In this document: one piece after another, positions 34,934 through 39,280 of the stretch
Layout of the letters: each line of letters begins with the position of its first letter
How positions within the stretch are numbered: the first letter of the stretch is position 1
Source of the DNA: Methanosalsum natronophilum
GTDB taxonomy: Archaea; Halobacteriota; Methanosarcinia; Methanosarcinales; Methanosarcinaceae
Assembly (NCBI RefSeq): GCF_024808815.1
Contig: NZ_JANUCS010000017.1
Location: 1-39,280 of the forward strand
Reading direction: 5' to 3'
DNA: 39,280 nt
Position numbers and translations under genes: made by a program
Notes under the pieces: generated by a model
Databases searched by the model: none
The model's input: only the letters and a program-made list of their open reading frames with translations
Told to the model about the DNA's origin: nothing

Positions 34934-35767
34934 TCAAATATGCTTATACCAGATATTCATGTTCTCGAGGTTACCAGCAATGTTAGTATTATTTACAAGC
35001 TTTCCTGTAAATTTGTATCCAGCTTTTGAAAAAATTATATTGATCCCGTAAGAACATGACCTACATATAGTATATAAGGTAAGTATGTTTCTATCTTTCA
35101 TTTCAGATTCCATTTTTGTTAAAAGGAACCCTGATAATCCTTTGCTTCTAAAATTAGGAATAGTTGCAAAATCAGTCATTTCTGCATTTTGTGAAGCAAA
35201 GTCAATCTCCGTTGAAGAAACAGAAACCAAATCATTATTCTTAAAAACACCAAAATAAACAACATTATCTTCCATAGTGTCTTTAATATATTTTGGATCT
35301 TGTATAGGAAATGGATAAGTTTCAAAAACTATGCTATAGACCCTTGCAATTGCTTCAATATCTTTCTCATTGCATATACGGTAATCATATTCAGAACCTA
35401 ATAAACCAATATTACTTTCATTTGATTTTGTTAGTGCTGTTTTGATTACTTCTTGATCAATATTTTCTGACATATCTATCTTCCGATTTTCAGAAAAAAA
35501 CTTCCCTAAAAAGGAAACATCTTTATACCCAGAATAAAACTTTGGGATATAAGCTTCTTCTTTATAACCATATTGGAAAAACTTAGTATTATATTCACGC
35601 GGGACTTTAACAAATATCTTTGAATACTTTTTTTCCCCTGCAAGTTCGTCAAGATAATAGATAATTTCAGGTAAATCTTTAGTGTTTGTTTTCATTAGAT
35701 AAATACGATCATTAAACTTTCCATGCTGGATGATAGAGTTATTTATCATTTCAACTTTATCACTCAC
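34934..35767 (-). CDS. ablB: Beta-lysine N6-acetyltransferase
   Basis: This 277-residue GNAT-family enzyme acetylates beta-lysine from acetyl-CoA to make N-epsilon-acetyl-beta-lysine, a compatible solute of methanogens. The N-terminal half contains [20 protein letters not shown]. The GNAT domain occupies about residues 125-277 with the acetyl-CoA loop in [20 protein letters not shown]. The family ending is [20 protein letters not shown]. It starts with GTG, preceded by GAAGGAACA, and overlaps the ablA stop by 8 bp, indicating translational coupling. Confidence 0.93.
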
Positions 35768-37088
35768 TGTTCCTTCTCTCCATCCTAGCTGTATCTTCAG
35801 GAATAAGACTTACCTCATCATCGTGGTCTGACAAAAGCTTAGAGATGCCAATTGCTTTGTATTCTTGAGCATCATCAAGTTTTAATTGTAGTTTGCAATC
35901 ATCACAGTTGCGATCGCAAAAAATAGCTTCATAAGTATCAGGTTCTTTATAAGAAGTTATTACACCTTCATAGTTTCGTAGAATAACTTTGTTAGTAGAC
36001 CAAGATACTAAGTAGTTTGGCATAACTGGTATTTTACCCCCACCACCTGGAGCATCAATCACATATGTAGGAATTGAAAAACCACTAGTATGACCTATTA
36101 AATTTTCCATTATTTCTATTCCTTTACCAACAGGTGTTCTAAAATGAGCTAACCCCTCAGACATATCACATTGGTACAAATAATAGGGTCTAACACGGTT
36201 ATGAACAAGTTTGTGAATTAAGCTTTTTATAATTCTATGACAATCATTTATACCTGCAAGCAAAACAGTCTGATTACCCAGCGGTATACCTGCATCAGCT
36301 AGTTTTTTTAGAGCATTCTTTGAAGAAGCTGTAACTTCTCTTGGATGATTAAAATGGGTGTTAATCCATAAAGGATGGTGCTTCTTTAACATGTTCACTA
36401 GATTATCAGTAATTCGGTACGGAAGTACTACTGGCATTCTAGTTCCTATTCTAACCACTTCTACATGAGGAATTTCGTCTAATTGTGTTAATATCCAGTC
36501 AAGATAATCATCAGGCAGCATAAAAGGATCTCCACCTGACAATAAGACATCTCTTACTTCATTATGCTCTTTAATGTATTGTAGCCCTTCAACGACTTCA
36601 TCTTTTTGTGGTATAGAATCTACATCACCAACCTTTCTTTTTCTAGTACAATGTCGGCAGTACATAGAACATGTATTACTTACATGGAAAAGAACACGAT
36701 CTGGATATCGGTGGGTAATGCCTGACACAGGACTATCTTCATCTTCAGATAATGGGTCGTTCATTTCACATTTATTCAATATAAGCTCGCTAGGCGATGG
36801 AAAAGATTGTAAAAATATAGGGTCATTATAGTAGTCCTCTGCTTCAATTAAGGACAAATAATAAGGAGTTATAGATAAAGGAAAAGTCTCAAGTGTTTTT
36901 TGCAGTTTCGACCGTTCATCTTTACTAAATTTTATACCAAGTAGATTTTCAAATGTATTTATATCTTGAATTGAATGTTTTAATTGCCATTTCCAGCTTT
37001 TCCAATTAGAAATAACGGTTTCATTATCAATTTTTTCTGCTATGCTTTTTTGTTGATCAGTGTATTGAGCCATAGTATGGTCACTCAT
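35760..37088 (-). CDS. ablA: Lysine 2,3-aminomutase
   Basis: This 442-residue radical-SAM, PLP-dependent enzyme moves the alpha-amino group of lysine to make beta-lysine, the precursor of the osmolyte. The cluster motif is C140-x3-C144-x2-C147 in [47 protein letters not shown] and [19 protein letters not shown] follow. The ATG at 37088 has no ribosome site. The in-frame ATG at 37073 has GAGTGA seven bases before it and gives [10 protein letters not shown], so it may be the true start. Control by salt is known for the family. Confidence 0.95.
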
Positions 37089-37627: not shown

Positions 37628-38686
37628 TTATAATATTTCATCTGCAGCTTTTCTCAATCTATTGAGTACAGCCACTCCAATACCTTCATTATTTATATTT
37701 CCATCAACTATTATTATATCAAAATTATTATCATCAAAGTATCTTAAACCTCTAAACAATGCTTTTCCAGCATCTATTGCATTTTTACCTAAAGAGAATG
37801 AATTATTAAGATGATAGTAAGATTTTATGTGTTGGCTAGTTTCTTCCATAAGGAGTAGGCCCACCTTTTTCTTTTTTTCTTTATTCTCTTTTTGAAGTTG
37901 CACAATCTTCTCAGCATGTTTTTCAATTGTGCTAGTTAGAAGTGCAAGTATGACATGAGACTTAGGAGAATAATGTTTATACTTCAAACCAGGTGACTTG
38001 ACTATTTTACTTTCTTCAGCATTATTGTTGTAACCAACTTCTACTCTATCTAAATGAGCACATAGGTCATTATAGCTAATATCTCCTGGGCGTAAAATGG
38101 TTGGATATGAAGAAGTTAGGTCCAAAACAGTTGACTCTAAACCAATTGTTACATCACCACCATCAATTATTATATCTATTTTACCATTTAAATCTTTGAG
38201 TACATGTTGAGCTGTTGTTGGGCTTGGTTTTCCAGATAAATTAGCACTTGGAGCTGCGATTGGACAACCCGAATTCTTAAGTAAACTAATAGCTATCTTA
38301 TTTGCTGGCATTCTAATAGCAACTGTATCTAGTCCCCCCGTAGTTATATCTGGAACAATTCTTTTTCTTTTCATAATTAATGTTAGAGGACCCGGCCAAA
38401 ATAAATCAATTAGTTTATGAGCCTGATCAGGTATCTCTAAAGCGATTTTGGAAATATCCTCTTTAGAGCTAATATGGACTATTAAAGGATTGTCTGCAGG
38501 CCTGCCTTTTGCTTCAAATATCTTGCTTACAGCTGAATGCTCTAAAGCATTTGCTCCTAACCCATAAACAGTCTCTGTAGGAAATGCAACAGTCCCTCCA
38601 TTATAGACTACACTAGATGCATATTCAATATACCTATTAAAATTTTTATTGTTAAGTTTTAAGAGTTGAGTTGAAGTTTTATACAT
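37628..38686 (-). CDS. sua5: L-threonylcarbamoyladenylate synthase (Sua5/YrdC family)
   Basis: This 352-residue enzyme makes threonylcarbamoyl-AMP, the donor for the universal t6A37 modification of ANN-decoding tRNAs. The YrdC domain covers about residues 15-215 with YNGGTVAFPTETVYGLGANA, IFEAKGRPADNPLIVHI and CPIAAPSANLSGKPSPT. A short linker (SPGLKYKHYSPK) leads to the C-terminal Sua5 domain. ATG 38686 is chosen because GGAAAG precedes it and the TATA box at 38727-38736 would start transcription near 38706, downstream of the in-frame ATG at 38719. Confidence 0.94.
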   Translation of the reverse strand: MYKTSTQLLKLNNKNFNRYIEYASSVVYNGGTVAFPTETVYGLGANALEHSAVSKIFEAKGRPADNPLIVHISSKEDISKIALEIPDQAHKLIDLFWPGPLTLIMKRKRIVPDITTGGLDTVAIRMPANKIAISLLKNSGCPIAAPSANLSGKPSPTTAQHVLKDLNGKIDIIIDGGDVTIGLESTVLDLTSSYPTILRPGDISYNDLCAHLDRVEVGYNNNAEESKIVKSPGLKYKHYSPKSHVILALLTSTIEKHAEKIVQLQKENKEKKKKVGLLLMEETSQHIKSYYHLNNSFSLGKNAIDAGKALFRGLRYFDDNNFDIIIVDGNINNEGIGVAVLNRLRKAADEIL

Positions 38687-38726
38687 TATGCTTTCCTTCA
38701 CTAGCAGATAGCGTAACATGTTATGT

Positions 38727-38832: not shown

Positions 38833-38843
38833 CTTATATAAAA
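38833..38843 (+). promoter_or_regulatory. TATA box of the candidate small RNA
   Basis: AGAAAAACTTATATAAAA (38826-38843) is a purine-rich BRE followed by a textbook archaeal TATA box. Its centre is about 24 bp before the first base of the inverted repeat at 38862, so transcription should begin at the stem. Confidence 0.6.
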
Positions 38844-38861: not shown

Positions 38862-38926
38862 TGTGAGCGGGCCTTTTTTTTGAAACCCCACTCCCAAATT
38901 TACCCCCACTCCCCAACCCGCTCACA
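38862..38926 (+). ncRNA. Candidate small RNA: 10-bp stem enclosing C-rich tandem motif
   Basis: TGTGAGCGGG (38862-38871) and CCCGCTCACA (38917-38926) are perfect inverted copies enclosing 45 nt. The enclosed part has a T8 run (38874-38881) and then two copies of a CCCCACTCCC motif (38886-38895 and 38904-38913) separated by AAATTTAC. The GC-rich stem stands out in an AT-rich intergenic region and has a TATA box at the right distance. On the opposite strand the four G-runs satisfy the standard quadruplex pattern with loops of 3, 7 and 3 bases. I do not recognise a named RNA family. The T8 run could end transcription early, which is an argument against a full-length RNA. Confidence 0.55.
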
Positions 38927-39280
38927 TTAACACCTTAGATAAATATTGCTTTATAGAAACTATATTTCCTTTAAATCAATTTTATATGATAAATGGATAT
39001 TCCTATATTTCTTAATGCAAAAAGCAAACAAAATCAATAGAGATAATTTTTTTAAAAAAACTAATTATTTTAAGAGAAAGCATAAACAGGATTTGTTAAT
39101 TACCTTGCTTCTTATAATAATCTATTTTAGCAGCATATGAAACAAACTCTAACATTGTTCTAATAAGTAGACATTGTGGTTATTATGGTTGTGTCACTAT
39201 TTTGCTGTAAATTCTCCTGTACCACACTTTAGTTAGAGATCCATGTTTAAATATCTATTTCCTGTTAACCATTCTTCGTT
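38927..39280. other. 354 bp with no recognised gene at right edge
   Basis: This AT-rich stretch follows the candidate small RNA and runs to the window end. A 64-codon open frame at 38946-39140 starts with TTG, lacks a ribosome site and is dominated by Lys, Asn, Ile and Phe codons expected from AT-rich DNA, so I do not call it. No tRNA, repeat or terminator was recognised. Confidence 0.5.

Follow-up and report, generated by a model that had tools for sequence, protein, structure and literature searches.

A C-rich hairpin near the end of the window (the whole 39,280-nucleotide stretch of DNA analysed here) is almost certainly a free-standing small-RNA gene with a conserved stem and a conserved loop, as judged from comparative sequence analysis, and the single copy seen by the initial annotation of this DNA is one member of a multi-copy, class-wide family. 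The family appears to be nearly universal in the class that holds the Methanosarcina, Methanothrix and ANME-2/Methanoperedens lineages, and it looks like a core regulator of that class. As a whole, the data are best explained by a class-wide family of small-RNA genes that would act in trans through antisense pairing, a proposal to which we give even chances of being correct. To our knowledge, few archaeal small RNAs are known beyond one genus. The RNA described here is present in practically every good genome, in several copies, across a class with methanogens that use acetate, methanol and methylamine as well as the methane oxidisers of the ANME-2/Methanoperedens lineages.

The hairpin element and its promoter

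The element is built on an inverted repeat, TGTGAGCGGG (38862-38871, plus strand) and CCCGCTCACA (38917-38926, plus strand), with 10-bp arms that are 100% complementary and enclose a 45-nt loop at exactly the positions given by the initial annotation; covariation among relatives provides further support for both arms. Its account of the loop is equally exact. The loop holds a U8 tract (38874-38881, plus strand), a U-run kept in family members that may be a site for an Sm-like protein, and a direct repeat of CCCCACTCCCAAA (38886-38898) and CCCCACTCCCCAA (38904-38916), placed 18 nt apart. Within this region we distinguish a first C-rich motif, CCCCACTCCC (38886-38895, plus strand), identified through the direct repeat, and a second, ACCCCCACTCCCC (38902-38914, plus strand), which is the most conserved part of the family in the two alignments discussed below (A2 and A4). 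No other perfect 10-bp repeat in the 39-kb window has 7 or more G/C and a loop of 20-80 nt, and 200 shuffles of the gap in which this one lies yielded none. The element strand forms a single hairpin, with an RNA fold of -16.6 kcal/mol (z = -5.1 against 200 shuffles).

A TATA box, CTTATATA (38833-38840, plus strand), identified by its sequence and by its spacing in family members as the RNA gene's own promoter, has its octamer centre 25.5 nt upstream of the first stem base. In 76 of 104 family members the best TATA match begins 35-27 nt ahead of the stem, and the spacing from which a start at the stem had originally been predicted is thus kept across the family. Since the TATA box lies at a kept distance, the RNA should start at the stem, and we place the predicted transcript start at, or within a few nucleotides of, the 5′ arm. 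Runs of T5 are only moderately more frequent downstream of the element (49/102) than upstream (32/100), too slight an excess to identify them as terminators. Coding potential was discarded: stop-free frames are common because the loop is almost without G, and their lengths are spread over all three residues modulo 3.

Covariation of the stem and conservation of the loop

The copies share a common anatomy, consisting of a TATA box, about 25-30 nt of spacing, the 5′ arm, a U-run, one or two copies of the motif ACCCCCACUCCCC and the 3′ arm. In alignment A2, 91.8% of cells are paired and double changes occur in 5 of the 10 pairs. Because the members of A2 had been collected with a pattern that contained part of the stem, a loop-first test was made, in which all sites matching the loop motif alone were taken from 13 genomes. 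With the GC-rich genome G372 left aside, 24 of the 26 sites are enclosed by a perfect stem of at least 8 bp; at random places a stem of 9 or more is found in 2.5%.

The sequence of the stem varies freely while its pairing is kept, to the extent that whole stems have been replaced (GCTGACGGGTT/AACCCGTCAGC, TTGCACGGGTGG/CCACCCGTGCAA, TGCGGGGGA/TCCCCCGCA, GAGGCATGTGG/CCACATGCCTC and GTGGGCAGG/CCTGCCCAC). In alignment A4, compiled from members with varied stems, 96.1% of cells pair, a percentage inflated by selection because members were picked partly for having a stem, so that the loop-first test is the neutral one. Double changes occur in 8 of the 10 pairs of A4, whose covariation score of 0.483 exceeds both that of shuffles (0.222) and that of slid structures (0.11 at most). 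The compensatory stem changes that a covariance search of relatives had been proposed to detect are therefore present, and the lack of conservation in close relatives that the initial annotation had allowed for did not occur, both stem and loop being conserved.

The loop, in turn, is nearly fixed, with a U-run followed by ACCCCCACUCCCC once or twice. Of 83 distinct members, 82 have a run of at least four U ahead of the last C motif, and 25 have a second copy of the C motif. The family loop is composed of 43% C, 28% A, 26% U and 3% G, and with so little G it stays single-stranded.

Two further C-rich hairpin-like loci of the host genome, on contigs C18 (position 15461, L419) and C6 (position 4317, L414), contain ACCCCCACCCCCC within long and quite different stems, and L419 has a TATA-like stretch upstream; both are possibly divergent family members. 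In Methanosarcina-like genomes, a sub-family with altered loops consists of paralogues (L082, L353-L355) that have a GGGCATCCGG stem and as many as three C-rich blocks, and it includes copies clustered within 1-2 kb.

Distribution and copy number

When 100 related genomes were searched with BLASTN, 67 gave matches, and exact conservation of the second C motif and the 3′ arm recurred among these. A covariance model built from 45 members (R1) locates the RNA in 174 of the 186 genomes of the order, including 117 of the 118 good ones. A second model with more varied stems (R2) was run on a phylum-wide sample of 393 genomes at an E-value of 0.001; the 84 positive genomes all belong to one class, that of Methanosarcina, and no match was obtained outside it in this sample at this threshold. 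Three R1 matches outside the class (E 0.002-0.008) were discarded, since R2 did not recover them at E 0.001. Because members from these genomes had served to train the models, the E-values of those members are not independent.

Named matches come from Methanolobus, Methanococcoides, Methanohalophilus, Methanomethylovorans, Methanosarcina, Methanothrix/Methanosaeta and Candidatus Methanoperedens. Genomes usually carry 1-5 copies, and one Methanoperedens-like genome reaches about 20 matches; copy numbers from the order and phylum searches are lower bounds, as these used stricter filters that lose weak matches. At E 0.1, three Methanoperedens-like genomes of a single genus (G131, G112 and G128; family f5, genus g19) show 15-21 matches each, far above other genera.

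Two genera with small and mostly incomplete genomes of 1.3-1.8 Mb (g9 and g10) gave no significant model match, and their lack of the RNA offers a natural comparison. In the RNA-less genomes of these genera (G010, G023, G011, G024, G033, G041, G049 and G056), CdhC is either divergent (70-87 bits, against about 200) or gives no hit, which may be either coincidence or a shared loss of metabolic context. The idea that loss of the RNA goes with loss of ACDS was rejected, CdhC being present in divergent form (70-87 bits) in 6 of the 8 g9/g10 genomes searched.

Searches for viral carriage returned 19 hits, all in DNA of 53-68% G+C that has neither the family loop nor a TATA box, and bacterial hits from a pattern scan, mostly in GC-rich DNA without promoter or loop, were attributed to chance. 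In a Chitinispirillales metagenome-assembled genome (L106), TACCCCTCGACCCACTCCCCAACCCGCCGCGTCTTATCG recurs at several places and looks like a dispersed repeat unrelated to the C-rich hairpin family.

Possible modes of action

In the mechanism that we favour, the gene's own TATA promoter would give rise to an RNA of roughly 65-85 nt, predicted to start at the stem, and the stem would close a long loop almost without G, displaying the U-run and one or two copies of ACCCCCACUCCCC. The RNA would act in trans and hinder the translation of several mRNAs, its C-rich loop forming short seed pairings with G-rich stretches in them that resemble Shine-Dalgarno sites, and the U-run may hold an Sm-like protein. 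By analogy with bacterial RNAs, we put forward tentatively, at slightly less than an even chance, that the element regulates in trans by base pairing of its loop with G-rich parts of mRNAs, Shine-Dalgarno sites among them. Within the loop motif lies CACUCC, the complement of the Shine-Dalgarno variant GGAGUG, which was seen 5 times before start codons in the host genome, with 0.6 expected (280 starts).

Searches of the host genome for targets were made by pattern and in selected stretches. A perfect complement to the motif over 11 nt occurs there nowhere but in the two RNA genes. Tolerating one mismatch brings in no site at a start codon; it adds the two C-rich hairpin-like loci on C6 and C18, the remaining copy of the motif in the window RNA and one site within a coding sequence. 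Full-length antisense pairing with an mRNA was rejected for want of a suitable site within one mismatch in this genome. Across 276 start regions, the motif paired no better than shuffled versions of equal composition. Pairing with the ribosome-binding sites of the ACDS operon, taken as the mark of M. mazei sRNA41, was also examined. The stronger pairing seen with the cdh operon (p 6e-7) was matched by shuffled motifs and left a residual p of 0.23 once Shine-Dalgarno strength was allowed for; the apparent preference for ACDS is accounted for by that strength and gives no specific support for targeting of the operon. GGGGAGT seeds before ATG outnumber matches to the reversed pattern (453 vs 305 in 11 genomes), an excess that is uneven between genomes and not interpretable as targets. 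These results are compatible with short-seed pairing, and antisense action is retained as a possibility that falls a little below the halfway mark.

A serious though somewhat unlikely rival is that the RNA serves as a protein-binding decoy or RNP. The U-run and C-rich motif would then bind an RNA-binding protein (Sm-like, TRAM or some other binder of single strands), which the numerous gene copies would titrate or store, and the stem would act as a mere scaffold. In bacteria, CsrB-type RNAs titrate CsrA. Such a role would fit a motif that stays fixed, once or twice per RNA, while stems are exchanged, a gene copy number that varies up to about 20 matches per genome, and a host genome with no matching mRNA site and a motif that performs no better than shuffles at start regions. 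However, no partner protein is known or was found, and the pattern would look no different under antisense pairing through short seeds, as in the cuckoo RNAs (PMC10746234). We regard as unlikely the stronger proposition that the fixed U-run and C-rich loop are the recognition site of an RNA-binding protein, and that methanogens and anaerobic methane oxidisers thereby have a global post-transcriptional switch comparable to CsrA/CsrB.

Pairing with a specific RNA partner, in which the loop would bind imperfectly to another non-coding RNA or to a few conserved mRNAs in the manner of Yfr1/Yfr10 and Yfr2, appears quite improbable. The 13-nt motif is near-invariant over the whole class, which suggests a conserved partner, and the cyanobacterial RNAs Yfr1 and Yfr10 have a fixed motif in common and pair with the small RNA Yfr2 (PMC6778093). 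Against this, the searches of the host genome gave no G-rich partner within one mismatch, including any Yfr2-like small RNA with a near-complementary motif, and non-coding near-complements lie only on the antisense strand of other C-rich hairpins.

Relation to known small RNAs

No match for the window was found in Rfam 15 at the gathering score, and representative copies matched no family except for a neighbouring tRNA. The literature yielded no description of such a family, in a comparison that lay outside the sequence lists of M. mazei small RNAs. The proposal that the element is a candidate archaeal small RNA of no known family is thus upheld, at the level of sequence, by the conserved stem, loop and TATA spacing and by the Rfam search. 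We rate it as an apparently new RNA family of a known kind, that of small RNAs displaying a C-rich motif in a hairpin, and as new in being a class-wide archaeal family.

The nearest parallel is with the cuckoo RNAs (alpha-r14, including NfeR1 and CcsR1-4), alphaproteobacterial hairpins present in several copies in which an ultraconserved C-rich CCUCCUCCC is unpaired and the stems are highly variable, and for which antisense action is predicted (PMC10746234). In the archaeal family, too, the stems vary in sequence around a conserved C-rich motif in the loop, but that motif is ACCCCCACUCCCC instead of CCUCCUCCC, there is one hairpin in place of three per RNA, the distribution is confined to Methanosarcinia, and a loop U-run and an archaeal TATA promoter are added. 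We therefore consider, by analogy, that it may work like the cuckoo RNAs without being a member of their family; if its loop does act as theirs, C-rich hairpin regulators would have evolved convergently in two domains. The antisense reading also finds a parallel in Yfr1 and Yfr10, for which such action has been demonstrated and of which the latter presents its fixed motif in a hairpin loop with variable surroundings (PMC6778093). The archaeal RNA resembles both in being small, almost universal in one large clade and endowed with a fixed single-stranded motif, and differs in motif and clade.

Among archaeal RNAs, the studied M. mazei sRNA41, sRNA154 and sRNA162 are reported to mask ribosome-binding sites through sequences of their own (PMC6560208, PMC5867862). 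They share with the present family an intergenic location and the same family of archaea, sRNA41 and sRNA154 being compared by description only. At 191 nt, sRNA162 has three stem-loops, and its sole homologues are those of M. acetivorans and M. barkeri (PMC3510493); identity with it is ruled out by the single hairpin and class-wide distribution of the family described here. Nine conserved cold-induced small RNAs, in several highly conserved copies in one genome, have been described in Methanolobus psychrophilus (PMC5378194), of the same archaeal family; compared by description only, these nine stand against 2-7 model matches per Methanolobus genome. The covariance models allow the RNA to be sought in existing dRNA-seq data of Methanosarcina and Methanolobus.

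Genomic neighbourhoods

The RNA gene in the window lies beside a divergent Sua5/YciO threonylcarbamoyl-AMP synthase gene (37628-38719, minus strand; Pfam PF01300 and PF03481), which is outside the RNA gene and marks a conserved locus. A Sua5-family gene adjoins an RNA copy in 10 loci of other genomes, and in relatives the other flank is formed by a gene for antiporter subunit G that runs opposite to the RNA, a flank known from those relatives and not from the window itself, which ends at 39280. This neighbourhood is common to about a dozen genomes, most of them of other genera. Other copies adjoin RFC/topoisomerase VI genes, cofD, an ABC metal-transporter permease gene and others; as these neighbours are unrelated, they share no common cis-regulated gene, and each copy is a free-standing gene.

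That the element acts at the level of DNA, as a mobile repeat, MITE or protein-binding palindrome, is highly implausible: it would agree with the presence of several copies in a genome, which reach about 20 matches in a Methanoperedens-like one, and with the tandem arrangement of some of them (L049, L050 and L155), but it is largely refuted by compensatory stem changes around a fixed, G-poor loop on one strand, and further opposed by a promoter at fixed distance, gene neighbourhoods conserved across genera and the lack of any viral copy with family loop and promoter among the hits.

Elsewhere in the window (34934-37088, minus strand), a lysine-2,3-aminomutase-like gene (PF12544) is followed by an acetyltransferase-like ORF. 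Lysine-2,3-aminomutase and acetyltransferase together make N-epsilon-acetyl-beta-lysine, an osmolyte of methanogens, and the pair fits a halophilic host.
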